A stretch of 64,000 nucleotides of DNA, from assembly GCA_002256395.1 (NCBI GenBank), contig NKJG01000005.1, forward strand, positions 124,001 to 188,000, read 5' to 3'. The notes below the pieces were generated by a model. It did not search any database. It had not been told where the DNA came from and worked only from the letters and a program-made list of their open reading frames with translations. Source of the DNA: Bacteroidetes bacterium B1(2017). GTDB taxonomy: Bacteria > Bacteroidota > Bacteroidia > UKL13-3. Position 1 is the stretch's first letter; every line of letters starts with the position of its first letter. The position numbers and the translations under genes were made by a program. Of the stretch, positions 1,938 to 60,187 are shown one piece after another.

Positions 1938-3569
1938 TTATATTTTAAGTAGAAGCTTATGTTGGCTTCTAGAATTGGTGTGCAAAACAGTTAAAAAATA
2001 GATTCCCTTTGGAATATCTTGAGTTTGTATTGTAGCCTGTTTTATTGCTCCAATTTGAGTGGCAACTACTTGGCCAAACTCATTTATTAACTCCAATTTC
2101 TCTATCTCAAACTCACTCTCAATAGTTATTAAATCTGTAAACGGATTAGGATAAACCAAGCTCTTTTCTTTTACCTCCTGCCCTTGGGTCAGGCCATTTA
2201 ATACATTTCCATTTGCATCTAAACGAATGGCAAAAAAATCTCTACTCAAATTTTGCGAATCATTTATATAATTATGCGTATACCCAACACCAACAACACT
2301 TCCATCGCTTAGGGGAGTTATACTTAACAAGGAAACATTTTGATTATTGAAATATCGTTTACTTTTTATTAAACCCAGATCTTTACTAATCCAAGCAAAA
2401 AACAAGGTGTCGGCTTTTGGCACCGGTGGGAAATTAAACTCTTCATTTTTTTGGTCTATCATTCCTGCAAAAACCATACTCCCATTATTAAATCTATCTA
2501 AGCAGCGCAGATAGGCAGGGTAACAATGCCAATATGAATTTTCGAACCCAATTACCTTTTTATTTTCCACCCTATTTTCTGGTAAAAGGGTATCAGAGTT
2601 AAGCGTATTTAAGGCAACAAAAAACTGTTGAGTATGATTCGGATCTTTAAATCTAACACCTGCAACATAAAAACTTGATGAATCGCCAAGTATAGGTAAA
2701 ACAGTATTGTATGGCCCAAGAAACCGTGTATATGCAGGATTACAATTATTGTTATCATCTACAAAACAAGTAGGAGAAGGATAGTTTAAATCATTTAAAT
2801 CCTCATTTAATACTCTTGGTATTTCAAATCTAACACCAACCGTATGATAGTATAACCAATTATCAACCCTATACCCCATATACTTGGTTTCGCTTAATTG
2901 AGATAATTCTGTTGAATAAAAATCTAAATACAAAGAAAAAAGTGTATCCGAACGCCTTCCATACCAAAGGGTATCTAACCTAAAACTGTTCATTTTACTT
3001 TCAGAATCAAGGACAAAATACACATTCTGCCTTGGCGTTAGCCTATTTGGTGTAGCTAATAAATCAATGCCAATTGCTCCAAATAATTGTTGCTGCATAT
3101 TTATTTTGCCATGCATTCTATTAATGGTATAGGGCAAACTTATTGGCAAAACTTGTGAGCTTGAACCTAAATAGGTTAAGTTAAAAGAAAAGTACCAGCA
3201 ATACAATACAGGCTGAACCAATTTTAATTGAGAAGGTACAACTTTACCTGCAAACCCATACACTACAATTTTACCAGCTTGCAAAACTGAGCCTGCAATG
3301 GTAAAGGAAGAATCTTTTGATAATGGCAAGGAAATACTATCCATTTTACCTCCAGCATAGGTGGTTTTGGCAAGTAGTAAATACTGTAAACTATCAGCCT
3401 TTCGCTCTGCACTACCAATAAACACTAATTGGTTCAAGCCCAACTCATGGCAATCTACCCAATATTCACTCCAATTACGCGTATAGGTTTTGGGCATACC
3501 TTCATATACAACTTGAGCCTTGCAAAAATTGCATACTATAATTAACACAAAAAATAATCTTTGTTTCAT
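1938..3569 (-). CDS. T9SS-sorted secreted protein, function unknown
   Basis: A 543-residue protein with a signal peptide (MKQRLFFVLIIVCNF, then a CKAQ cleavage region) and a C-terminal Por/T9SS type A sorting domain: YPNPFTDLITIE at its start, a central LINEFGQVV strand and a terminal GIYFLTV...LLLKI. Such domains direct cargo through the type IX system to the cell surface. The body (about residues 25-455) has repeated FVLD- and DSSSFYVAGV-type strands and may be a beta-propeller-like or adhesin fold, but I recognise no enzymatic motif. I moved the start from 3593 to 3569, because the longer form adds eight residues before the signal peptide and overlaps the upstream gene. It follows the lipoprotein gene by four bases, so they form a two-gene operon. 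Confidence 0.8.
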   Translation of the reverse strand: MKQRLFFVLIIVCNFCKAQVVYEGMPKTYTRNWSEYWVDCHELGLNQLVFIGSAERKADSLQYLLLAKTTYAGGKMDSISLPLSKDSSFTIAGSVLQAGKIVVYGFAGKVVPSQLKLVQPVLYCWYFSFNLTYLGSSSQVLPISLPYTINRMHGKINMQQQLFGAIGIDLLATPNRLTPRQNVYFVLDSESKMNSFRLDTLWYGRRSDTLFSLYLDFYSTELSQLSETKYMGYRVDNWLYYHTVGVRFEIPRVLNEDLNDLNYPSPTCFVDDNNNCNPAYTRFLGPYNTVLPILGDSSSFYVAGVRFKDPNHTQQFFVALNTLNSDTLLPENRVENKKVIGFENSYWHCYPAYLRCLDRFNNGSMVFAGMIDQKNEEFNFPPVPKADTLFFAWISKDLGLIKSKRYFNNQNVSLLSITPLSDGSVVGVGYTHNYINDSQNLSRDFFAIRLDANGNVLNGLTQGQEVKEKSLVYPNPFTDLITIESEFEIEKLELINEFGQVVATQIGAIKQATIQTQDIPKGIYFLTVLHTNSRSQHKLLLKI

Positions 3570-3573
3570 AGTT

Positions 3574-4902
3574 TTACAAACCACTAAATGCATTTGGATC
3601 TGGAACTAAAACACGAGTAGCAAAAACAAATCGGTAGGTATATTTATACTTTAATTTGGTGCAGGTATCGGGGAAATAGGCTCCATCAAAAGGTGTAAAT
3701 AATTGCTCGGTATGACTAAACTCCAAAGTGCTTTTGCAAACACCCGAACAATTTGTTTCCCAATAATTATAAATAGGCACAATATCTAAACGTACAAATA
3801 CCTTATTACTAGGAACCGTATTTTTTGCTTGACTATAAATACTTGGTATTTGATTGAGGTAATAATTCAACTGAGTACTGTTTAAATTTACCACACTATA
3901 AACTCCATAACTAGGATTGGCTGGAACACTTAAATTGGTTAAGTATTCTGATCCATCGCAAAATTTAGAGAAAATAAGGGAAGGATATACTTGCGTAAAT
4001 CTATTGGTGAGTTGATTTGGATTATACCAAGGATTTCCTTTGGTAAACGTTCTTTTATAGTCCAAATCTTTAATATCTGTTGCACTTGATATAACAAACA
4101 CATATTTATATCCAGTAGGGGCACTAGATGGCCAACCATAAGTGGCAAAAATATTATTGTTACCATAGGTTTCCATAACCTTTGCTGCACCAGCAGGTTT
4201 TTGAGTACCTGTTGGCAAGGCCGAATTAATAGAACCTCCGTACCAAACATATTTCCCAAACATTTCATTTACTATCCCGTTTCCAGCCTGTCCAAGCGGC
4301 GGCACAGCCATTCTACCTCCCTCAACTTCTCCAGTTGCGGTTTGGAATTCATTGCCATAACCCATTCTATAAGTATCTGTTGAGGCAAAAGAATTTAAGG
4401 TACCAAGTGTACCTTTAAATAATGAAATTCTTTGTTTGCCAATAGTAACTCTTAGTTCCATTCCAGGTAAATTGGGCTTCCAATTGCTTTGAACCAAATA
4501 AATGCGGCAATTACTTGGTATACTCAATTGAAGGGAGAATTTTAACAAATTCACTTTCGAAGACAAATAAGCAAACGAATAAGCATTGCTTACTGGAGCA
4601 AGAAAAGGAATAGAAAATAAGCTATCCTCAAAATCAACTAGCAAAGTATCGTTATTGGCCATACTAGCATTTGCCAAACAATTAAAATAAAACTCTAAGC
4701 TATCTAAGCTTACTAAATCTGCAGCACTCTTTGTTAAACTATTCCCCTGCTTAGTTTGGGAAATATGTTTTTGTACAATTCCAGCCATAACTTTTTCGAG
4801 GTTTGGGCTAGATGAAACTTGATTAAATTCTGGAGTTTGCTTTCTGCAGGAAACCACCAGTAGCAAAATGCTAGCAAGAATAAATAAGGAATAGGTTTTC
4901 AT
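3574..4902 (-). CDS. Predicted lipoprotein, function unknown
   Basis: A 442-residue protein whose N-terminus is a lipoprotein signal: MKTYSLFILASILLLVVSC with the lipobox VVSC and then RKQ. No catalytic motif was recognised. The middle contains a Gly-rich stretch (MAVPPLGQAGNGIVNEMFG) and the C-terminal third has Cys pairs (CSGVC, CTKLK) that might form disulfides. The ATG at 4902 was chosen over the longer frame start at 4950 because it gives the lipoprotein signal directly. It is the first gene of an operon with the T9SS cargo gene four bases downstream. A surface or periplasmic partner for that cargo is possible but is only inference. Confidence 0.7.
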   Translation of the reverse strand: MKTYSLFILASILLLVVSCRKQTPEFNQVSSSPNLEKVMAGIVQKHISQTKQGNSLTKSAADLVSLDSLEFYFNCLANASMANNDTLLVDFEDSLFSIPFLAPVSNAYSFAYLSSKVNLLKFSLQLSIPSNCRIYLVQSNWKPNLPGMELRVTIGKQRISLFKGTLGTLNSFASTDTYRMGYGNEFQTATGEVEGGRMAVPPLGQAGNGIVNEMFGKYVWYGGSINSALPTGTQKPAGAAKVMETYGNNNIFATYGWPSSAPTGYKYVFVISSATDIKDLDYKRTFTKGNPWYNPNQLTNRFTQVYPSLIFSKFCDGSEYLTNLSVPANPSYGVYSVVNLNSTQLNYYLNQIPSIYSQAKNTVPSNKVFVRLDIVPIYNYWETNCSGVCKSTLEFSHTEQLFTPFDGAYFPDTCTKLKYKYTYRFVFATRVLVPDPNAFSGL

Positions 4903-4933
4903 GACTAAAAAAAAATAAGAAGTTGAAAATAAA

Positions 4934-4968
4934 TTGACATTAGGTAACAATTACTATCACCGTGTCAA
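4934..4968. promoter_or_regulatory. Inverted repeat between divergent genes
   Basis: TTGACA (4934-4939) and TGTCAA (4963-4968) form 6-base arms 23 bases apart, in the 137-base region between the lipoprotein gene (minus) and the XRE regulator gene (plus). It could be an operator for the regulator, but arms this short are only suggestive. Confidence 0.25.
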
Positions 4969-5039
4969 AATTAAAACTTTCTTTTTAATAATTAATACTA
5001 CCATTTATTTTTAGTACTTTCACTATACAATACATCAAA

Positions 5040-5435
5040 ATGACAATCCCCAATTGTACAAATTGCATCATGCATTTAGGCCTAAAAATAAAACTACTCA
5101 GAATTAGCAAGGGTTTAACCCAAGAAGACCTTGCCGACAAGGTAAATAAAACCCGTCCACTCATTTCTTCCATTGAGCAAACGGGCAAAATAAGTCCGCA
5201 TACCCTTAAAAAAATATGCGAGGTGTTAGAGGTAGAGGAGTCAGAATTTGACAATATGGTAAACGAGCCTTTATCTGTTTATAAAGCCACTCCAAACCCT
5301 GCCTTTGAAGAAAAAATGCAAGTTTTACAAAAGGAAATAGACCATTTAAATAGGCTCGTTTCCATGCAGCAAGATTTAATAGAAGCCCTAAAAGATAAAA
5401 TAGAAAGCTTAGCGCCAAAGGCTAAGAAGAATTGA
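5040..5435 (+). CDS. XRE-family helix-turn-helix transcriptional regulator
   Basis: A 131-residue DNA-binding protein. The HTH_3 (Cro/C1) domain spans about residues 13-66: LGLKIKLLRISKGLTQEDLA, then the recognition helix region TRPLISSIEQTG, then LKKICEVLEV. The C-terminal part (about 85-125) is a predicted coiled coil (KEIDHLNRLVSMQQDLIEALKDKI) likely used for dimerisation. Two ATGs are possible, 5040 and 5070; 5070 would start right before the domain and remove a CTNC segment, while 5040 has the A-rich upstream context typical here. It stands alone, divergent from the lipoprotein operon and just upstream of mtaB, so its target could be its own promoter region. Confidence 0.85.
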   Translation: MTIPNCTNCIMHLGLKIKLLRISKGLTQEDLADKVNKTRPLISSIEQTGKISPHTLKKICEVLEVEESEFDNMVNEPLSVYKATPNPAFEEKMQVLQKEIDHLNRLVSMQQDLIEALKDKIESLAPKAKKN

Positions 5436-5449
5436 CCCATATTTTTTCA

Positions 5450-5458
5450 TATCTTCGC
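5450..5458 (+). promoter_or_regulatory. Promoter -7 box for mtaB (TATCTTCGC)
   Basis: TATCTTCGC ends seven bases before the mtaB ATG and is a variant of the Bacteroidota -7 box TAnnTTTG. The identical word precedes the S46 peptidase gene at 16503. If used, the mRNA would have almost no leader. Confidence 0.45.
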
Positions 5459-5465
5459 GGCCCAT

Positions 5466-6770
5466 ATGCAGAAATCGGTTGCCTTTTATACGCTGGGTTG
5501 TAAACTCAATTTTTCTGAAACCTCCACCATTGGTCGTAACCTAGCCCAACATGGGTATAAGAAAGTGGAGTTTCATGAAGGCGCAGACGTGTATGTAATA
5601 AATACCTGCTCTGTTACAGACCATGCGGATAGACGTTGCAAGAAAATTGTTAAAGAAGCATTAAGGCACAATCCCAACGCATTTGTAACTATTATTGGAT
5701 GCTATGCCCAATTAAAACCTCAAGAAATTGCAAGCATTGAAGGGGTTGATTTAGTGTTAGGGGCTGCCGAAAAATTTAATATACAAGACTATATTGGAAA
5801 TGGCGCTAAAAAGGAAATTGCCGAAGTTAAAGAAGGTAAAATAAAGGAAGTTTTAGATTACCATGCCTCCTACTCTATTGGCGACAGAACTCGCACCTTT
5901 TTAAAAGTTCAAGATGGATGCGATTACTTTTGTTCCTTCTGCACCATTCCATTAGCGAGAGGCAAAAGCCGCAGCGACACCATTGCAAATGTGATTAAAC
6001 AAGCAAATGAAGTAGTGGCAAAAGGCATTAAAGAAATAGTTTTAACAGGTGTAAATACAGGCGATTTTGGGATTGGTTCAGACGAAAACTTCTACCTATT
6101 ATTAAAAGCCTTAGATGAAGTAAAAGGTTTAGAACGCTTGCGCATCAGCAGTATTGAACCGAACCTATTGAGCGATGAAATAATAGAATTTGTAGCGCAA
6201 AGCAAAACCATTGTCCCTCATTTTCATATCCCACTACAATCTGGTTCAGATGAAATGCTCAAGAGCATGCGTCGCAAATACCTTACGGCATTATATACTT
6301 CTAGAGTAGAAAAAATTAAGAAACTGATGCCGCATTGCTGTATTGGAGTAGATGTAATTATTGGTTACCCGGGCGAAACGCATGAGCATTTTCTTGAAAC
6401 CTATAACTACCTCAATGAGCTAGACATTTCGTATTTACATGTATTTACGTATAGCGAACGCGAGAATACCACAGCATACAAATTACCAGGTAAAGTTACC
6501 CTTCGCACGCGTAATGAGCGTAGTAAAATGCTTCATATTTTATCTGATAAAAAGCGCAGATTTTTCTACGAACAAAATCTTGGTAAAACATACCCTGTGC
6601 TGTGGGAAATAGAAAATGATGGCGATACCATGCATGGCTTTACCTCTAATTACGTGAAGGTAAAAACAGCTTACGACCCATCTTTAGTAAATGAAATTTT
6701 AGACTATAAACTAGAAGAAATTGACGAAGACATGGTGGTTAAAGGTAAGCTTATGGCTTTGTCGGTTTGA
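5466..6770 (+). CDS. mtaB: tRNA (t6A37) C2-methylthiotransferase MtaB
   Basis: A 434-residue radical SAM enzyme that adds a methylthio group to N6-threonylcarbamoyladenosine at position 37 of ANN-decoding tRNAs, giving ms2t6A. The N-terminal UPF0004 domain has its three Cys (TLGCKLN, NTCSVT, IIGCYAQ); the radical SAM cluster is Cys152-xxx-Cys156-xx-Cys159 (GCDYFCSFC), followed by RGKSRS. The length and the TLGCKLN start fit MtaB rather than MiaB or RimO. The substrate modification t6A needs a Sua5/TsaC enzyme, encoded here at 11355. The MobA-like gene follows after 13 bases, so they may share a transcript. Confidence 0.93.
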   Translation: MQKSVAFYTLGCKLNFSETSTIGRNLAQHGYKKVEFHEGADVYVINTCSVTDHADRRCKKIVKEALRHNPNAFVTIIGCYAQLKPQEIASIEGVDLVLGAAEKFNIQDYIGNGAKKEIAEVKEGKIKEVLDYHASYSIGDRTRTFLKVQDGCDYFCSFCTIPLARGKSRSDTIANVIKQANEVVAKGIKEIVLTGVNTGDFGIGSDENFYLLLKALDEVKGLERLRISSIEPNLLSDEIIEFVAQSKTIVPHFHIPLQSGSDEMLKSMRRKYLTALYTSRVEKIKKLMPHCCIGVDVIIGYPGETHEHFLETYNYLNELDISYLHVFTYSERENTTAYKLPGKVTLRTRNERSKMLHILSDKKRRFFYEQNLGKTYPVLWEIENDGDTMHGFTSNYVKVKTAYDPSLVNEILDYKLEEIDEDMVVKGKLMALSV

Positions 6771-6783
6771 ACCAACTAACGTA

Positions 6784-7383
6784 ATGGATACAGCCAAAAA
6801 CAGAGTGGCAATTATTTTGTGTGGCGGACAAAGCACGCGCATGCAAAATCCAAAATCGCATTTAGTGTATCATTTTCAAGAACAATACTTACATTTAATA
6901 CAACTTTGTGTAGAAGCAGGTTTAGAAACTTATGTTTCCTGCACGTTTGACCAAGCATACACATTTAAAGAAAACACTAAACTAATCCTTGATTTAAGCC
7001 TCTATACTAATGCTGGCCCCATTTCTGGTTTATTAAGTGCCATAGAAAAACATCCAACAAAAGCTATTTTAGTAATAGGCTGCGACTACCCATTATTTGG
7101 CAAGTTTGAGCTGAACCAATTGCTGGATACCTTTGAATTAAACAAGCAAACAGTTTGCTTTTATAATGAAATTAGCCAGATGGAGGAACCACTTCTTGCT
7201 ATATATCATCCAAACGATTTTAGTAGAATAAAATCAAACTTTCTTGCAGGTAAGCAATCCTTAAGAAATTTCCTTGCCGCATCAAATCCAATTAGGATCA
7301 AACCGAAATCAATTGATGTATTGAAAAGTTTTGATACTCCCGAAGAGTTTAGCAATTTTACTGCACCACCAAACGCTTTGTAA
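6784..7383 (+). CDS. mobA: MobA-like NTP transferase (molybdenum cofactor guanylyltransferase type)
   Basis: A 199-residue nucleotidyltransferase-fold protein. The nucleotide-binding signature appears as ILCGGQSTRMQNPKSHL near the N-terminus, and the metal-binding region as VIGCDYPLF around residue 98; GPISGLLSAI fits the MobA family. MobA attaches GMP to molybdopterin, but no other cofactor gene is in the window, so the exact substrate is not proven. The ATG at 6784 was chosen; the longer frame from 6721 runs inside mtaB. The 3' end overlaps the convergent protease gene by 26 bases. Confidence 0.75.
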   Translation: MDTAKNRVAIILCGGQSTRMQNPKSHLVYHFQEQYLHLIQLCVEAGLETYVSCTFDQAYTFKENTKLILDLSLYTNAGPISGLLSAIEKHPTKAILVIGCDYPLFGKFELNQLLDTFELNKQTVCFYNEISQMEEPLLAIYHPNDFSRIKSNFLAGKQSLRNFLAASNPIRIKPKSIDVLKSFDTPEEFSNFTAPPNAL

Positions 7384-53187: not shown

Positions 53188-53216
53188 TTGTAAAGGTTAA
53201 AAGCTTTTCTTATAAT
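53188..53216 (+). promoter_or_regulatory. Possible sigma70-like promoter of the speD operon
   Basis: TTGTAA (53188-53193), a 17-base spacer and TATAAT (53211-53216) form an exact sigma70-type layout ending 11 bases before the ATG. Bacteroidota primary promoters normally use TAnnTTTG, so this is either coincidence or an alternative promoter. The rest of the 245-base gap shows no other convincing element. Confidence 0.35.
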
Positions 53217-53227
53217 TGATACAGCTT

Positions 53228-53581
53228 ATGGAATACAAAAAGGGATTACATATTGTTTGTGATTTGGAGGATGCAAGTGAGGATGCACTCTGCAATATGG
53301 ATGGATTTAAAACTTTAGTGGAGGGTTTAATTTTAAAACATCAACTACAATCAACAGGTTCAGTTTATCATCATTTCGAGCTTAAAGGATATACTGCTGT
53401 TGTTGGCTTAACAGAATCGCATCTTTCTGTGCATACTTGGCCTGAGTTTGGAAGAGTAACCTATGATATTTTTCTTTCAAATTTTTTGCAGGTAAATGAT
53501 AGCGTATGTGAACATATTTCAAAAGAAATACAAACGTTTTTCGGAGGCAAGGTTTCTCAAATTCATAAACTATCCCGATGA
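53228..53581 (+). CDS. speD: SpeD-family pyruvoyl-dependent decarboxylase, divergent
   Basis: A 117-residue homologue of bacterial S-adenosylmethionine decarboxylase proenzyme (class 1b). The self-cleavage site ESHLSVHTWPE is intact (Glu63-Ser64, with His69), so a pyruvoyl group should form. At the position of the catalytic Cys (Cys83 in the Thermotoga enzyme, 20 residues after the cleavage Ser) there is Ser84: DIFLSN instead of DLFTCG. The GvSG loop before the site is also changed to KGYTA, with Thr56 replacing the Ser. The substrate may therefore not be AdoMet. I started at ATG 53228 rather than TTG 53216. It opens an operon ending at 60144. Confidence 0.85.
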   Translation: MEYKKGLHIVCDLEDASEDALCNMDGFKTLVEGLILKHQLQSTGSVYHHFELKGYTAVVGLTESHLSVHTWPEFGRVTYDIFLSNFLQVNDSVCEHISKEIQTFFGGKVSQIHKLSR

Positions 53582-54243
53582 ATCTTACCGTTATTCAACA
53601 AAAAGAAATTTGCCCTACTTGCAATCATTCAGTGGATGTAATTTGCCATGAAAGCAATGCAAGAGTGTGCTCATTTTGCCAGAGCATTCTATGGAATAGT
53701 TCCTTTGCTGAACCTTGGAAAAGCACTTCTGGCAATCCGCTTGAACTAATTTCACTACTAAAAATTGGGTCAAGCATACAATGCCCTCTAATAACAGGTA
53801 AGATTATTGGCTGCATAGAATGGCAATTAAAAAATGGCCCTGTAGTGTTTTGGAATATAGTAGATGAAGAAAACAAGCTCCACTATATGAGTGAAGATTC
53901 TGGTTCATTCTTTTTATACAAAAACGTAGCAAAAACGTATGTGCTGAACCAAAAATTCAATTCCCTAAAAAACGGAAAGCCTGCCGTGCTTATTATAAAT
54001 AATGATTACCACACCTATTTAGTAAGAAGCCTTTTTGTGTGTAATCGGTATGATGTTTTTGGGGAAGTTTATTACCCTGTAGATACAGAACCTTTAGTTA
54101 AGCACATTGTTGCTTATAATGAACATGGAAACAGTCTGCTAATTTTGCAATTTAACAAAGAAAAAAACCAAGTTTGGCAAGGTGAATTACTCCATTTAGA
54201 AGTTAATTTTATTACACATCCTAACTATACACTCATTGGATAA
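53578..54243 (+). CDS. DUF4178 protein with N-terminal zinc ribbon
   Basis: A 221-residue protein. The N-terminal zinc ribbon has CPTC (12-15) and CSFC (32-35); the DUF4178 domain follows (LLKIGSSIQCPLITG, CIEWQLKNGPVVFWNIVDEE), a small beta module with two tandem halves. No membrane segment is seen. DUF4178 proteins often accompany SpeD and spermidine-synthase-like genes; no biochemical role is known to me. ATGA overlap with speD shows translational coupling. Confidence 0.75.
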   Translation: MNLTVIQQKEICPTCNHSVDVICHESNARVCSFCQSILWNSSFAEPWKSTSGNPLELISLLKIGSSIQCPLITGKIIGCIEWQLKNGPVVFWNIVDEENKLHYMSEDSGSFFLYKNVAKTYVLNQKFNSLKNGKPAVLIINNDYHTYLVRSLFVCNRYDVFGEVYYPVDTEPLVKHIVAYNEHGNSLLILQFNKEKNQVWQGELLHLEVNFITHPNYTLIG

Positions 54244-55555
54244 CTCAGCTAAAATATGGCCCAATGCACCTAAAAAGGTTGAATGCCCAAGCTGTTCAAA
54301 AGGCAATCAATTATACCTTCACGATGCGGCAACACATTACGTTTGCGTGCATTGCAAGTTGTTTGTAAATGTTTCAGAAAAAAAGGCAGAAAAAATTTCA
54401 AGTAAATCCCAAAAGGTTGATTTCTTATGGCCTATTGGTAAAACAGGACAAATAAGAGGTATCACATACCAATTGACCGGAGCCGTATTAAGAAAAGAAA
54501 AAGGTGCGAGTTATACCTGGATGGAATATTGTTTATTTAATCCACTTCATGGCTATGTTTACCTCTCTGAATATACTGGAAACTGGATACTACTAAAGGA
54601 AACAAGTATTTACCCTCAAGTAAAAATTAACAACCATACCATTGAAGATGCAGAGGGTAATTCGTATCAACTATTTTTAAGGTATCAAACAGATTGCTTA
54701 AATGCTATAGGCGAATTTCCATACAATGCCGTTGACGAAAATGTAAAACTGATTAAGGAATACATTAACCCACCAGTAATGTATATGTTAAAGGAATACC
54801 CTAGCGAAACCATATGGTTTAAAGGTGAACATATTTCCTTTAAAGAAATAAAAGAGGCTTTTGGCGATAGCGAATTTGCTCCTCCTAAAATTGGGAAAGG
54901 AAGCATTGAACCTCAATTCTTGGGAATTGAATATAAGTCTTTTGCTATTTATGCAGCCCTCACAATTCTGATAATGGGTGTGTTTACTTTACTTTTTGAA
55001 AACAGCCTCGAACCAAAAAAAGTCTTCCATCAATCCTATTATTTTAATTGCAACGATTCTGCCAATAAGGTATATGTTGGCGAGGGATTTAAATTAGACA
55101 AAGGGATAAATAACCTTGAGCTTTTTTTCCATACCAAGCTAGAACAAAATTGGGTAGAGGCAGAAATAACACTAATTAATGACGACTTAGATGAGGAATA
55201 CACCTTGACTAAAGAATTGTATTATTATTCTGGGTACGACGATGAAGGTTCGTGGACAGATGGCACCAATGAAAGCAGTGAGATCTTCAATAATATTCCT
55301 GCTGGAAACTACCATATTCAAGTCATTCCATACTTAAGTCCTAATCCTATGAATGTTAGTTTGGATCTTGAAATTTATAGAGGCGTTGCCGTAAGAAGTA
55401 ATTTTTATTACCTTATTGGACTACTTATAATTTTGGTGTATTTGCAATATTTACGCTATATGTCATTTGAACGAAAAAGATGGTCGAATAGCAATTACTC
55501 AACCTACGACCATCGTTCATGGTTTGAAAGAAATTTAGGAGGATCTGATGAATAA
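54236..55555 (+). CDS. Membrane-anchored zinc-ribbon DUF4178 protein
   Basis: A 439-residue protein. It has a zinc ribbon (CPSC ... CVHC), a DUF4178 domain (residues about 60-170, DFLWPIGKTGQIRGITYQLT, WMEYCLFNPLHGYVYL), a membrane helix at about 237-256, a strand-rich extracytoplasmic domain (about 260-385) and a second helix near 390-410, with a short Arg-rich tail. The start is TTG at 54236; no ATG is available near the conserved start. It overlaps the previous gene by eight bases and the next by eight. It may bridge the cytoplasmic enzymes and the envelope. Confidence 0.75.
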   Translation: MDNSAKIWPNAPKKVECPSCSKGNQLYLHDAATHYVCVHCKLFVNVSEKKAEKISSKSQKVDFLWPIGKTGQIRGITYQLTGAVLRKEKGASYTWMEYCLFNPLHGYVYLSEYTGNWILLKETSIYPQVKINNHTIEDAEGNSYQLFLRYQTDCLNAIGEFPYNAVDENVKLIKEYINPPVMYMLKEYPSETIWFKGEHISFKEIKEAFGDSEFAPPKIGKGSIEPQFLGIEYKSFAIYAALTILIMGVFTLLFENSLEPKKVFHQSYYFNCNDSANKVYVGEGFKLDKGINNLELFFHTKLEQNWVEAEITLINDDLDEEYTLTKELYYYSGYDDEGSWTDGTNESSEIFNNIPAGNYHIQVIPYLSPNPMNVSLDLEIYRGVAVRSNFYYLIGLLIILVYLQYLRYMSFERKRWSNSNYSTYDHRSWFERNLGGSDE

Positions 55556-55712
55556 ATTAATAAAACTTGAGAAACATAGTTGGTTTTTTATAAGCATACT
55601 TGGACTTATAATGAGCGCCTATATATACCTTTCCTTTGATGGGTATAAATTGTTTAATGGAGCCAACACAAGTAAATACGACCCTAAAAAAGAACATCAT
55701 TATCACAAATAA
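55548..55712 (+). CDS. 54-residue membrane peptide
   Basis: A small open frame with a strong Shine-Dalgarno sequence (AGGAGG, seven bases before the ATG at 55548), rare in this genome. It starts within the last codons of the DUF4178 gene. It encodes MNKLIKLEKHSWFFISILGL, a single membrane helix (about 12-30), then a tail ending KKEHHYHK, a His-rich C-terminus. The gene order, the ribosome-binding site and the sequence all support translation. Function unknown. Confidence 0.7.
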   Translation: MNKLIKLEKHSWFFISILGLIMSAYIYLSFDGYKLFNGANTSKYDPKKEHHYHK

Positions 55713-55716
55713 AATT

Positions 55717-55935
55717 ATGGAAGAAATTATTAACATGAAGTATGTAGTTGGCTCTGTGCTCTACTCATTGATTGGCATTGCCATTTTAGTTGTTACCTTT
55801 TGGATTATAGAAAAAATTACTCCAGAGAATCTATGGAAAGAAATTTTAGTAAATAAAAACATGGCACTTGCTATAATGGCGGGTGCATTTATGATTGCTA
55901 TAGCAATTATTATTAGCTCAGCAATTCATGGTTAG
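55717..55935 (+). CDS. DUF350 membrane protein
   Basis: A 72-residue protein with two membrane helices (about 8-28 and 45-68) separated by EKITPENLWKEILVNKNMAL, matching one DUF350 repeat unit (YjfL-like). DUF350 proteins are found next to polyamine-related and envelope-stress genes in many bacteria, but their activity is unknown. ATG 55717 was chosen; the frame start at 55636 lies in the upstream gene. It overlaps the next gene by eight bases. Confidence 0.75.
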   Translation: MEEIINMKYVVGSVLYSLIGIAILVVTFWIIEKITPENLWKEILVNKNMALAIMAGAFMIAIAIIISSAIHG

Positions 55936-57442
55936 AAAGGTTTCTACCCCCAATCTGCTGCTGTTTTCGGTATTAGTTGTTGCTACGTGCGGATTAATTT
56001 ATGAGCTTATTGCAGGTACTCTTGCCAGTTACTTGCTTGGAGATTCTGTAACCCAATTTTCCATCATCATTGGGGTATATTTATTCTCCATGGGAATTGG
56101 CTCATGGCTTTCAAAATACTTTGAACGAAACCTACTTTCGTGGTTTATTCAAATTGAAATCCTTGTTGGCTTGGTTGGAGGTTTTAGTTCATCTGCCTTA
56201 TTTATCTTATTTGAATTTGCAGGCTCCTTTCAATTGGTCTTATATGGACTTGTAATGTTAACAGGCATATTGGTTGGATTGGAAATTCCACTAATCATGC
56301 GAATCCTAAAAGATGAGTTTGATTTTACCGACTTAGTTTCTCGCGTATTTACTTTTGATTACATAGGGGCACTTGTTGCCTCATTGGTTTTTCCTTTAGT
56401 TTTAGTTCCATTTTTAGGTTTAGTAAAAACGTCCTTTCTATTTGGCATCCTAAATGTTGGAGTGGCCATTGCTTTATGCATACAATTAAAACATTTAGGC
56501 AAATGGTTTTCGGTATTAAAACGAATTGGGTTTGCGGCGCTTATTATTCTTGTTGCAGGGTTTATTTTATCAGAAAAAATTGTACAGTTTAGCGAAAGTT
56601 TAAGCTATGCCGAACCTGTTATTTTCGCAAAATCATCGCCCTACCAAAGAATTGTTTTAACTCGTAATCGAAAAGAATTAAGGTTATATTTAAACGGCAA
56701 CCTACAATTTAGTTCAGCCGATGAATATCGCTACCACGAGGCTTTAGTGCATCCTGTTATGCAACAACTAAAAGATAGTTGTTCTGTATTAATTTTAGGA
56801 GGTGGAGATGGATTGGCTTTAAGAGAAATACTTCGTTATTCAAATGTAAAAAAGGTAGATTTGGTTGATTTAGATGAAGCCGTAACACACCTATTCAGTT
56901 CAAATAGTCTGCTAACAGATTTGAACCAAAACTCCTTATCAAATCCAAAAGTTAGTGTACATCATAAAGATGCTTTTCAATGGCTCAAAACAAACACAAA
57001 AGCATTTGACGCCATTATTATAGATTTTCCAGACCCAGGAAATTACAGCGTGGGAAAGCTATACACCCAAACATTTTACAAACTACTAAAAAAAAGCATG
57101 CAGCCCAAAACCCTTGTGGTGGTTCAATCTACCTCCCCATTGGTTGCACCTAAATCTTTTTGGTGTGTGAACCAAACCATGGAGTCGGTAGGATTGCAAA
57201 CACTCCCCTACCATGCCTTTGTACCCTCTTTTGGAGAATGGGGATTTATTCTTGCCTCCTTTGACAAGCCAAGCTTTGCTACAGAAAACATTAGCTTACC
57301 CATGCGCTTTCTTACAAATGAAACAATCAAAACCATGAGTTCATTTTCGGCAGATATGAGCAAACAAACAACAGAAGTAAACAAGTTAAACAATCAGATA
57401 CTGGTGCATTACTTTGAAAAAGAATGGGCAATTTATCAGTAA
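55928..57442 (+). CDS. Membrane-embedded spermidine-synthase-like aminopropyltransferase
   Basis: A 504-residue fusion of about seven N-terminal membrane helices (residues 8-215) and a C-terminal spermidine-synthase (SpeE-like) domain. The methyltransferase-type fold is recognised by SPYQRIVLT, DEYRYHEALVHP, the binding loop GGGDG at 291-295, VDLVDLDE and Asp366-Phe-Pro-Asp369-Pro. These Asp residues occupy the place of the SpeE DSSDP pair. Membrane-fused SpeE homologues are known in bacteria but their products are mostly unknown. Its place next to a SpeD homologue implies that an amine group is transferred to a lipid- or membrane-linked acceptor. Confidence 0.85.
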   Translation: MVRKVSTPNLLLFSVLVVATCGLIYELIAGTLASYLLGDSVTQFSIIIGVYLFSMGIGSWLSKYFERNLLSWFIQIEILVGLVGGFSSSALFILFEFAGSFQLVLYGLVMLTGILVGLEIPLIMRILKDEFDFTDLVSRVFTFDYIGALVASLVFPLVLVPFLGLVKTSFLFGILNVGVAIALCIQLKHLGKWFSVLKRIGFAALIILVAGFILSEKIVQFSESLSYAEPVIFAKSSPYQRIVLTRNRKELRLYLNGNLQFSSADEYRYHEALVHPVMQQLKDSCSVLILGGGDGLALREILRYSNVKKVDLVDLDEAVTHLFSSNSLLTDLNQNSLSNPKVSVHHKDAFQWLKTNTKAFDAIIIDFPDPGNYSVGKLYTQTFYKLLKKSMQPKTLVVVQSTSPLVAPKSFWCVNQTMESVGLQTLPYHAFVPSFGEWGFILASFDKPSFATENISLPMRFLTNETIKTMSSFSADMSKQTTEVNKLNNQILVHYFEKEWAIYQ

Positions 57443-57448
57443 TGAAAC

Positions 57449-59068
57449 ATGGCATATATAAGTAGAAAACAATTCCTAAAATTTGGAGTAGCTGCACTTG
57501 CAGTTGCTGCTTCGGGTAAAATTTGGTTTCAAAAAAAGATATTGGCCATTCAAATGCAAGCCTCCAATGCAAACATTGGCCACCTGTTAAGAAACAAAAA
57601 GACCTCTTCAGAGTTACTCGCTAAGCACACCATAACGGATAGTACAGAAACACGTGTAGCTATTATTGGTGGTGGTATTTCTGGCTTGAGTGCTGCTAGG
57701 ATTCTAAAAAAAAATAATATCCCTTTTGTTTTACTTGAATTAAATAACCAACCTGGCGGAAATGCTATTAGTGGCAAAAATGAAGTTAGTGCCTATCCTT
57801 GGGGTGCTCATTACCTTCCCATTCCAAATCTTTATCAGCCAGAGTTAATTAACTTCCTTACTGAAACGGGTGTAATAACAGAAACGAATGAATTGGGGCT
57901 ACCTGTTTACAACGATTATTACTTGTGTTCTGCCCCAGAAGAGAGATTGTTTATACATCATTATTGGCAGGAAGGAATAATTCCTGAAACAGCCTTAAAA
58001 GAGCAAGACCATAGAGATATAAAAACATTCTTTGAATTAATATCCCATTACAAAAATGCAATTGGTTCAGACCAGAAAGAAGCCTTTTGCATACCCATAG
58101 AAAACTCCTCGCAAGATTTAGAATTTCTAAAACTCGACAAGCAAACGATGGCGGATTTTTTGCTACAACATGAGTTAAAAAGCACCTATTTACTTTGGTA
58201 CCTAAACTATTGTTGTAAAGATGATTTTGGCACCCCATTAAACAAAACCAGTGCTTGGGCAGGCATTCATTATTTTGCTTCTAGGAAAGGAATTGCCGCC
58301 AACGCAACAGCCGGAGACGTGCTTACTTGGCCAGAAGGAAACAACTTTTTGGTTCAAGGCTTAACTAAACCAATTAAACAAAACATTCTAGAAAATGCTT
58401 TGGTAGTAGATGTGAACCAAAAGCCAAACGAAATAGAAATACTTTATTTAAATCATGCTAAAAACACCTACCATAAGATAATTTGTAAGCAAGCAATTAT
58501 TGCAACACCACAATATATTAATAAGAAAATTATTAGAAATTATCCTTTAACACATCTCAATTTCGACTATTTCCCTTGGCTCGTTGCAAATATTACCACA
58601 CTTCCGCTGGCTCAGAATAAAGGAACAGAAATGAGCTGGGATAATGTTCTTTATACTAGTGAATCGCTTGGATATGTAAATGCTTGTCACCAGCATTTAG
58701 ACAGCAAAATCCCAAAATATGTTCTCACCTATTACCTTCCACTTTGCAAACTATCTGCTAAGGAAGAACGTAAATTGGCTTTCGAAAAAACACAAGAAGA
58801 GTGGGCCGAAATTGTATTAAAAGATCTTGAAAAAGCGCATCCCGATTTACGCCAACAAATTGAAAAAATAGATTTAAAAGTATGGGGTCATGCAATGATT
58901 AGCCCACAAACAGGTGTTATTTGGAACACAGAAAAAAAACAGTTTTTAAACAATTCTGAACCCATTTATTATGCGCACAGCGACCTAAGTGGAATCTCTA
59001 TTTTTGAAGAAGCCTTTTATCAAGGAACCAAGGCAGCCCAGCAAATTTGTAAACAACAAGTACTATGA
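57449..59068 (+). CDS. FAD-dependent amine-oxidase-like oxidoreductase
   Basis: A 539-residue flavoprotein. The N-terminus (MAYISRKQFLKFGVAALAVA) has an SRKxFLK motif and a hydrophobic stretch like a Tat signal, with Lys in place of the second Arg, so it may be exported or membrane-anchored. A dinucleotide-binding motif follows at GGGISG (74-79). The C-terminal DLSGISIFEEAFYQG resembles the FAD-closing motif of flavin-containing amine oxidases. It starts six bases after the SpeE-like gene and overlaps the next by four. A polyamine oxidase role would fit its neighbours but is not shown. Confidence 0.75.
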   Translation: MAYISRKQFLKFGVAALAVAASGKIWFQKKILAIQMQASNANIGHLLRNKKTSSELLAKHTITDSTETRVAIIGGGISGLSAARILKKNNIPFVLLELNNQPGGNAISGKNEVSAYPWGAHYLPIPNLYQPELINFLTETGVITETNELGLPVYNDYYLCSAPEERLFIHHYWQEGIIPETALKEQDHRDIKTFFELISHYKNAIGSDQKEAFCIPIENSSQDLEFLKLDKQTMADFLLQHELKSTYLLWYLNYCCKDDFGTPLNKTSAWAGIHYFASRKGIAANATAGDVLTWPEGNNFLVQGLTKPIKQNILENALVVDVNQKPNEIEILYLNHAKNTYHKIICKQAIIATPQYINKKIIRNYPLTHLNFDYFPWLVANITTLPLAQNKGTEMSWDNVLYTSESLGYVNACHQHLDSKIPKYVLTYYLPLCKLSAKEERKLAFEKTQEEWAEIVLKDLEKAHPDLRQQIEKIDLKVWGHAMISPQTGVIWNTEKKQFLNNSEPIYYAHSDLSGISIFEEAFYQGTKAAQQICKQQVL

Positions 59069-60144
59069 ATGAATCCAAATCAAATTCACCTTGGCTTGGA
59101 TTTAAAGGTTTAGAAATTGCCTTCATCTTATTGCCTGCACTTATATGTTGCCTATCTATTTTTATTTTTAAGGACTATTTTCAAACGCATACCGAAGTGA
59201 ATGCCATTTGGTGGTTGCTATTGGTTGTAGGAATTGATGTTTCGCATGTATACTCTACCTTGTTTCGAACCTATTTTAACTCAGAAGCTTTTAACAAGAA
59301 TCGCGATTTATTTACCTATACTCCAATTATTTGCCTGGTAGTAAGTATCCTTTTGTATGCCATACATCCAATGGCATTCTGGAGAGTTTTAGCGTACCTT
59401 GCCGTATTTCATTTTATGCGCCAACAATATGGAATTATGCGCTTGTACGAACGCAATGAAAATCTAAGTAACCTTTCAAAACAAATAAACTCACTGACCA
59501 TTTATTCGGCTGTTTTATACCCGATATTATTCTGGCATGTTGATGCTAATAGACAATTTAGTTGGTTTGTTGAAGGCGATTTTTTGGCCTTTGCATCCCC
59601 ATTTCTGAAACAAATTTTAGGCATATTATACGGCATAGTTTTACTCATGTATGTTGTTAATACAGGCTACACAAGTTTAAAAAACAAATCCTTTAATGTA
59701 CCCAAACATACATGGATAATGGGCACCATTCTATCTTGGTATTTAGGAATAGTGGCATTCAATGCCGATTTAATTTTTAGCGCCCTAAACATCCTTACGC
59801 ATGGCATTCCGTATATCGCCTTAATTTGGATTTATGGCAAAAAACAAGCTATAAAACAAGCCAACACAGGCTTTCTAAATAAACTCTTTTCCTTGCAAGG
59901 TGTGTTGGGGTTTATAATTATTTTACTAGCCTTTTCATATATAGAAGAAGGCCTTTGGGATGGCCTAATATGGAGAGACCATGAGCTTTGGTTCAAATGG
60001 TTTACAAATTTACCTCACCTAAGCGACCCAATTTTATTAAGCATACTTGTTCCAGTATTATCCTTACCTCAAATAACTCATTACGTATTAGACGCCTACA
60101 TCTGGAAAGTAAAGCAACCCCAAACCATGCCACACCTATTGTAG
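59065..60144 (+). CDS. Polytopic membrane protein with conserved His, Brp/Blh-like in outline
   Basis: A 359-residue protein with about nine membrane segments. Histidines sit at helix positions: DVSHVYST, VFHFMRQQYG, LTHGIPYIA and QITHYVLDAYIWK, a layout like metal-binding membrane enzymes such as the Brp/Blh carotenoid dioxygenases or fatty acid desaturases. I found no exact family motif, so enzymatic activity is only suspected. Last gene of the operon, coupled to the flavoprotein by an ATGA overlap. A terminator follows after nine bases. Confidence 0.65.
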   Translation: MNESKSNSPWLGFKGLEIAFILLPALICCLSIFIFKDYFQTHTEVNAIWWLLLVVGIDVSHVYSTLFRTYFNSEAFNKNRDLFTYTPIICLVVSILLYAIHPMAFWRVLAYLAVFHFMRQQYGIMRLYERNENLSNLSKQINSLTIYSAVLYPILFWHVDANRQFSWFVEGDFLAFASPFLKQILGILYGIVLLMYVVNTGYTSLKNKSFNVPKHTWIMGTILSWYLGIVAFNADLIFSALNILTHGIPYIALIWIYGKKQAIKQANTGFLNKLFSLQGVLGFIIILLAFSYIEEGLWDGLIWRDHELWFKWFTNLPHLSDPILLSILVPVLSLPQITHYVLDAYIWKVKQPQTMPHLL

Positions 60145-60153
60145 GAACAAAAA

Positions 60154-60187
60154 AAAACGGCCTTCATTTTTCAATGAAGGCCGTTTT
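60154..60187. terminator. Bidirectional intrinsic terminator
   Basis: AAAACGGCCTTCATT (60154-60168) pairs with AATGAAGGCCGTTTT (60173-60187) over a 4-base loop, with A- and T-rich flanks. It ends both the speD operon (plus) and rpoC (minus). Confidence 0.93.

Follow-up and report, generated by a model that had tools for sequence, protein, structure and literature searches.

Gene clusters that link an S-adenosylmethionine (AdoMet) decarboxylase, a fusion of spermidine synthase with a membrane domain, and DUF350 were reportedly described by Li et al. in 2019 (Biochem J 476:2579), and are said to have a 'polyamine-independent role'. A PspA/CesT-associated operon encoding a seven-transmembrane (7TM) SpeE with DUF350, DUF4178 and the lipoprotein Ctha_1186 is described in PMC11237479, where it forms group two; PspA and band-7 variants are also given there, as is a polyamine oxidase in one variant. 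Here we report on an eight-gene operon of this kind, located at positions 53228-60144 of a 64,000-nucleotide stretch (the window) of contig NKJG01000005.1 from Bacteroidetes bacterium B1(2017). Its genes encode, in order, a SpeD homolog, two zinc-ribbon proteins, a 54-residue membrane peptide, DUF350, a membrane-SpeE fusion, a flavoprotein and a polytopic membrane protein. The SpeD, membrane-SpeE, DUF350 and DUF4178 core is already published as envelope-linked and apparently polyamine-independent (PMC11237479, and reportedly Li et al.), and the SpeD, SpeE and DUF350 part of a preliminary description of this DNA is not new.

Three features appear to be new: a rule by which the small envelope protein of the operon ends in lysine, the periplasmic placement of the SpeE domain, and a His-rich polytopic member. 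Neither the C-terminal Lys rule nor the periplasmic placement was found in full-text searches of the open literature, and the polytopic member and a Cys-to-Ser change in SpeD were not met there, although they were not searched for by name. The accessible portions of PMC11237479 mention neither the polytopic protein nor a C-terminal Lys, the word lysine being absent from its main text, and those of PMC11107197 hold nothing on membrane fusions. Our favored reading, which we advance tentatively and rate a little short of an even chance, is that the operon encodes a membrane system that aminopropylates the C-terminal Lys of its own small peptide and then oxidizes the product, in a manner resembling hypusine formation.

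The Lys rule was determined across loci that were collected with the polytopic gene as anchor and examined by tblastn with the window proteins. The best 80 of 527 stretches encoding a relative of the polytopic protein, together with the window and seven fetched relatives, gave 88 loci, or 86 after two duplicates were removed; these are not all independent, as several are from Pedobacter and Mucilaginibacter. Both the DUF4178 and membrane-SpeE genes were located in 79 of the 86, which made these loci testable (seven in which either gene was cut off or not found were skipped). In 78 of the 79 a single-transmembrane (TM) peptide encoded between these two genes ends in His-Lys as a separate open reading frame (ORF), and in the one remaining locus (L041) the DUF4178 protein itself carries the tail as a fusion with the ending -HHK, so that a C-terminal His-Lys is present in all 79. 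As a background, Lys is the last residue of 294 of the 3594 hydrophobic ORFs in these loci and His-Lys the last pair of 26, some of which may be peptides of this kind that escaped clustering. The peptides are 46-111 residues long when read from the first start. Tyr is the most common residue at position -3 (61/78) and Phe at position -4 (46/78), while from position -5 on no residue occurs in half of the sequences and the tail is otherwise variable. The His-Lys codons may be CAT or CAC and AAA or AAG, and all three stop codons are used across the loci; because both vary, a reading-frame or ribosome-site artifact was ruled out as the source of this ending. The peptides carry more Lys and Arg (K+R) before the hydrophobic core than after it (1.97 versus 0.91; more before in 58 of 78 and equal in 15), which suggests that their N-terminus is inside and the tail outside.

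The rule extends to operons that lack the polytopic gene. We fetched 17 of the 18 membrane-SpeE genomes without that gene (G262 was left out) as variants and, after the rule had been formed, 13 plasmid records with membrane-SpeE operons. A Lys-ended product (-YHK, -HHK, -QHK, -SHK, -FGK or -GGK), be it a small TM protein, a lipoprotein or a fused tail, is encoded in 15 of the 17 variants, and a Lys-ended protein in 12 of 12 intact plasmid records from six genera (three Novosphingobium, three Burkholderia, two Tritonibacter, two Alteromonas, one Ensifer and one Gemmatirosa; the truncated L186 was excluded), giving 27 of 29 further operons, although these proteins were screened for K or GG ends and the counts are consequently less blind than those for the 79 loci. 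In Burkholderia it takes the form of a short lipoprotein-like tail (...LFSC...YGSHK). L041, L109 and L174 at first seemed to break the rule, but three-frame translation revealed a Lys-ended product, either as a fused tail or as a short ORF.

The two variants that do depart from the rule, L112 and L113, have an envelope protein ending in -SYGG, that is, in Gly-Gly. L112 encodes a GSP_synth protein, which is similar to glutathionylspermidine synthetase, and the genomes of both match PF03738 at that place. Of 25 ligase (GSP_synth) loci in Bacteroidota, 18 have a lipoprotein or DUF1190-like protein beside the ligase gene, none of which (0/18) ends in Lys; most end in Gly, Ser or Ala, with Leu and Arg once each. 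These 18 were picked by eye, that of L158 being read from L112 of the same genome and that of L147 lying 339 bases away, and other short overlapping ORFs at these loci, some of them ending in K, were left out. In Escherichia coli YgiB ends in -SMGG and YjfM in -HWGG, and a gene annotated as peptide--spermidine ligase follows each. The products of these genes, YgiC and YjfC, are reportedly peptide-spermidine ligases according to work by Pederick et al. in 2023.

Membrane-SpeE is the fusion of a SpeE-like domain to seven helices that the preliminary description had proposed: it aligns with solved aminopropyltransferases and its motif set is intact. Catalytic columns of the SpeE domain are retained in 78-80 of 80 family members, and the residues for catalysis and for binding of decarboxylated AdoMet (dcAdoMet), D294, D316, D348, D366, D369, Q260 and Y239, are present in 80/80, and in 27-29 of the 29 sequences from variants and plasmids. 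The seven TM segments, a number also given for 7TM-SpeE in PMC11237479, were read by hand from nine overlapping hydrophobic maxima. From the N-terminus through the successive loops the K+R values are 1.38, 0, 1.78, 0, 3.31, 0.08 and 2.04 in the 80 sequences, and the variants have the same positive-inside alternation (109 sequences in all). This alternation indicates that the N-terminus is inside and that the C-terminal SpeE domain is periplasmic, a prediction from sequence that would place it on the same side as the peptide tail.

The presumed source of the aminopropyl donor is SpeD, which is encoded in 70 of the 86 loci. Its cleavage Ser (in a Glu-Ser site) and active-site His are found in 70/70. 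At the column of the catalytic Cys (Cys83 in Thermotoga maritima numbering), Ser occurs in 64 of the 70 (Ser84 in the window) and Cys in six, which supports the diverged SpeD of the preliminary description. The six with Cys are non-Bacteroidota by record title and represent all such loci with speD; the variant and plasmid SpeDs with a readable motif also retain Cys, except for that of L107 (Ser). The window SpeD scores 62.7 bits against the TIGR03330 cut-off of 75.65 for canonical AdoMet decarboxylases. The speD gene at 53228 is the only PF02675 match in its genome, and ordinary spermidine synthesis was dropped as an explanation because this only SpeD is in the operon and the nspC match is far below cut-off; the assembly consists of 225 contigs with a listed contamination of 7.13%, making gene presence and absence outside the locus uncertain. 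PF01564 has three matches in the genome: membrane-SpeE scores 130 bits, and the other two, both weak, score 38 and 32 bits. As both weak matches pass the Pfam cut-off (22.9) and one lies in a 222-residue frame, there is some possibility of a soluble SpeE-like protein.

Downstream of membrane-SpeE, the flavoprotein has the flavin amine oxidase (PF01593) fold and a flavin adenine dinucleotide (FAD) motif. Its AlphaFold model (pLDDT 93.3) matched protoporphyrinogen oxidase, monoamine and putrescine oxidases and the spermidine dehydrogenase SpdH in Foldseek, with TM-scores of ~0.6-0.66 by query. Export is predicted: a loose RR/RK pattern resembling a twin-arginine translocation (Tat) signal occurs in 77 of 79 flavoproteins and R6 is invariant in an alignment of 59, a lipobox-like Cys is present in 43 of the 79 (not in that of the window), and TatC is encoded in the genome. 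The polytopic protein has no Pfam or NCBIfam match. Nine of its residues, D58, H61, H116, H158, H246, E294, E295, H339 and D343, are invariant in 69 sequences, and the intramembrane His and acidic residues among them suggest a metal or heme site. Owing to a like order of intramembrane His and a weak viral Foldseek match (rank 2, E 0.48, TM-score 0.39-0.48), we considered the Brp/Blh beta-carotene dioxygenases (PF15461) as relatives; hhalign probabilities of 0.7% and 2.4% gave this idea no support. A second branch of polytopic proteins (L123-L130) was seen in distant relatives within the phylum, 355-436 residues long in the loci read; its scanned members L123 and L127 had no Pfam match. Eight such distant homologs retain D58, H61, H116, H246, H339 and D343, and the neighboring genes in the eight loci read are unrelated and so provide no functional hint.

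Based on these data we envisage that cytosolic SpeD would supply dcAdoMet and that DUF350 or the seven-helix domain might carry this donor across the membrane. From the periplasm, where it is predicted to lie, the SpeE domain would then aminopropylate the peptide, whose tail is predicted on the same membrane side, at the epsilon-amine of its C-terminal Lys, and as late tailoring the Tat-like flavoprotein and the His-rich polytopic protein may oxidize or hydroxylate the aminopropyl-lysine. The zinc-ribbon DUF4178 protein could tie the complex to the cytosol. The reading would explain why a Lys-ended envelope protein accompanies transferase operons and other ends accompany ligase operons, and why the predictions assign flavoprotein, SpeE domain and tail to the same side of the membrane. 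The amine chemistry at the membrane suggested in the preliminary description is supported as probable. That description had listed a lipid, a peptide or a polysaccharide as acceptor and had not connected the peptide option with the 54-residue product; this list becomes considerably shorter in view of the unvarying terminal Lys of that product and of the prediction that SpeE domain and flavoprotein are periplasmic.

Several points weigh against aminopropylation of the peptide. Transfer to Lys is inferred from sequence, and a conserved C-terminus can also be a docking signal; DUF350 of the operon, a 72-residue half-size form, has a strongly conserved C-terminus of its own (AIHG/AIHS). If the SpeE domain is periplasmic, dcAdoMet has to be moved through the membrane, and no exporter for it is known to us. 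The supply of the donor is itself uncertain, given the Ser-type SpeD and the 11 loci that hold membrane-SpeE with no speD seen in the fetched stretch, which also argue against strict completeness of the module. The Tat-like pattern is loose and had no control, the Lys counts in variants and plasmids were filtered as noted above, and the polytopic model has no Protein Data Bank match with E <= 0.001. Finally, typical flavin amine oxidases have a conserved Lys near flavin N5; the flavoproteins here have no invariant Lys (the highest Lys fraction in any column is 0.79), and amine oxidation by them is not assured.

The strongest alternative, to which we give a lower but still appreciable probability, is that membrane-SpeE aminopropylates a small molecule or lipid, the peptide being a structural or regulatory subunit whose Lys serves only as a docking or polyamine-mimicking tag. 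C-terminal motifs commonly act as docking signals, SpeE-fold enzymes normally use small amines, and the ion-channel genes adjoining membrane-SpeE in variants L115 and L119 would fit polyamine gating. A small-molecule or lipid acceptor is also suggested by the preliminary description and by PMC11237479, where polyamines are said to affect membrane stability. It leaves unexplained, however, why Lys goes with the transferase and Gly-Gly or other residues with the ligase, and the genome has no other SpeD. Such clusters, moreover, reportedly do not make spermidine (Li et al.), and to our knowledge no acceptor has been known for membrane-SpeE since that was found. An improbable alternative is that the operon is a sensor in which the Lys tail and periplasmic polyamines compete to occupy the SpeE pocket, while the flavoprotein and polytopic protein signal the redox state to DUF4178 and, among the variants, also to partners of the PspA or band-7 type. 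Zinc ribbons preceding TM segments, the band-7 and ion-channel neighbors of the variants, and PspA in published ones (PMC11237479) would suit such a role, but the SpeE catalytic residues are fully conserved, as is the cleavage site in every SpeD that was found, and this argues for turnover. Least probable, in our estimation, is a neofunctionalized SpeD (for example a decarboxylase of another amino acid), with a SpeE domain that takes another donor or does no more than bind ligands resembling AdoMet: some SpeD homologs are known to decarboxylate ornithine or arginine (PMC10407285) and the Cys-to-Ser change would agree with this, yet the cleavage and dcAdoMet-binding motifs are intact, and the retention of Cys outside Bacteroidota and in the variants makes AdoMet decarboxylation the likelier ancestral role.

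The 86 loci bear out the conserved gene order on which the preliminary description depended. By record title they are mostly from Bacteroidota, with others from Alphaproteobacteria, Leptospiraceae, Verrucomicrobia, Melainabacteria, Omnitrophota, FCPU426 and Oligoflexia. Using tblastn, the flavoprotein gene was found in 85, membrane-SpeE in 81, DUF4178 in 79 and DUF350 in 72; the five loci without membrane-SpeE and the single one without the flavoprotein all start at a contig end. The first zinc-ribbon gene was detected in 10 of the 86, and as it evolves fast many were missed. ORF clustering revealed no same-strand family in more than 18 of the 86 loci besides the operon's own. In five non-Bacteroidota loci speD is directly downstream of the polytopic gene rather than first. 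In the Solitalea agri contig (L029, ~3321-6800) the genes for DUF4178, the peptide and DUF350 are tandemly duplicated within the operon, and both peptides end in YYHK. In a genome of the same genus as the window, a stretch resembling speD (L016; G009:C257 6053-6196) is broken by two in-frame stops and appears to be a decayed copy.

The polytopic gene is present in 8 of 64 genomes of the order to which the window belongs, its own genome included. Its profile matches 23 of 395 sampled genomes of the phylum: 11 strongly (some of these matches run over a stop codon), one as a decayed fragment and 11 as distant homologs. All 11 strong-match genomes have membrane-SpeE within ~4 kb of it, and these are 11 of the 29 full-length membrane-SpeE genes in the 395 genomes. 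In L131 (G441:C12 371045-371391) only fragments of the polytopic gene are left, interrupted by several stops, and the module has apparently been lost. The flavoprotein is retained in four of the 17 variants (L105, L106, L107 and L109) and was not found in the fetched stretches of the other 13; among the 13 plasmid records, seven encode the flavoprotein but no polytopic protein, and the other six, including the truncated L186, encode neither. Thus the polytopic protein accompanies the flavoprotein (85/86 loci), and membrane-SpeE may be accompanied by both, by the flavoprotein alone or by neither of them, as would be expected if the late steps of a pathway were optional. Variants L105, L111 and L177 have a band-7/SPFH gene flanking the operon, an ion-channel gene adjoins membrane-SpeE in L115 and L119, and these and the GSP_synth variants agree with those in PMC11237479.

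The features of the window are listed in Table 1. The preliminary description of a tightly packed eight-gene operon with one terminator is confirmed, with all eight ORFs at the coordinates it gave and junctions that are overlaps of four or eight bases or else gaps of four or six, whereas its interpretation is partly supported. Of its two zinc-ribbon DUF4178 genes, only the second matches PF13785 and the first, which has no Pfam match over cut-off, is a distant relative by a profile built here; the Novosphingobium counterpart of the first is annotated as DUF4178. In the second protein the domain between the two TM segments was judged by eye to be periplasmic.

Table 1. Features of the operon and its flanks (positions in the window)
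Feature	Position	Strand	Basis or remarks
Promoter-like hexamer pair	53188..53216	+	Just 5' of operon; 10/12 consensus matches
SpeD, class 1b AdoMet decarboxylase homolog	53228..53581	+	PF02675 3.1e-19
Zinc-ribbon protein, distant DUF4178 relative	53578..54243	+	30 bits to DUF4178 profile built here
Zinc ribbon + DUF4178 + two TM segments	54236..55555	+	PF13785 1.1e-8; hydrophobicity; TTG start as listed
54-residue single-TM peptide, proposed acceptor substrate	55548..55712	+	Counterpart peptide or fused tail in 79/79 loci
Codons for invariant C-terminal His-Lys	55704..55709	+	Synonymous codons vary (CAT/CAC, AAA/AAG), as do stop codons
DUF350, 2-TM half-size membrane protein	55717..55935	+	PF03994 5.6e-14; ATG start
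Membrane-SpeE: seven TM segments (residues 1-216) + aminopropyltransferase domain (~residues 230-480)	55928..57442	+	NF002956 4.1e-201; PF01564 5.4e-37
FAD amine-oxidase-fold protein, Tat-like N-terminus (SRKQFLK)	57449..59068	+	PF01593 2.1e-12
Ten-helix His-rich membrane protein, no named family	59065..60144	+	AlphaFold pLDDT 93.1
15-pair hairpin, bidirectional intrinsic-terminator-like	60154..60187	+	Between polytopic gene and convergent rpoC

The hexamer pair is weak evidence for a promoter because such sites are rarer in the window than in shuffles (14 vs 28.5); promoters of Bacteroidota deviate from the consensus that was scored. Similarly, the terminator scan gave 11 sites against 5.6 expected, so that only the strong hairpin is considered meaningful. 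The rpoC-like gene beyond it was named by eye from its translation. Neither PspA nor CesT was found among the eight genes by Pfam and NCBIfam matches and translations, nor was an ATP-grasp GSP_synth, and the genome has no PF03738 match.

If these expectations are correct, the operon represents a widespread extracytoplasmic bacterial protein modification in which a membrane SpeE aminopropylates a terminal Lys and a flavoprotein and an unclassified ten-helix metal-type enzyme tailor it, a prokaryotic membrane-bound counterpart of hypusine; we regard this wider proposal as possible, though we lean somewhat against it. It would add a protein modification, move aminopropyl chemistry to the periplasm and give a first suggested role to a His-rich membrane family without a Pfam match. 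In any case the invariant C-terminal Lys provides a concrete single-residue hypothesis for the acceptor of membrane-SpeE enzymes.

The clusters of Li et al. reportedly also link SpeD, a membrane-SpeE fusion and DUF350, with spermidine not the product; here the Lys-ended peptide, the flavoprotein and the polytopic protein are defined and a side of the membrane is predicted. In hypusine, on eIF5A, a polyamine-derived chain is likewise placed on one Lys and then hydroxylated by a metal enzyme, but the chain is an aminobutyl group from spermidine and the enzymes are cytosolic and unrelated. The operon of PMC11237479 shares 7TM-SpeE, DUF350, DUF4178 and a small envelope protein with ours, which differs in lacking PspA and CesT and in encoding a single-TM peptide, not a lipoprotein; the presumed counterparts of Ctha_1186 seen here end in Lys. 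Lys epsilon-amines bearing aminopropyl units are a known protein modification in diatom silaffins (PMC4557024, accessible part), although these are eukaryotic, silica-related and modified at KXXK motifs by an enzyme not named there. Finally, the E. coli yjfIJKLMC and ygiBC operons also have an envelope protein, ending in -GG, next to an enzyme that couples peptides with polyamine chemistry, and the yjf operon includes DUF350; theirs is an ATP-grasp ligation to a carboxylate, whereas here an aminopropyl transfer to a Lys amine is predicted and there is no ligase. If the favored reading holds, one rule would join the SpeE-type operons with these ligases, as members of a wider family that puts polyamine units on the C-termini of small envelope proteins, on Lys by transferases and on Gly-Gly by ligases.

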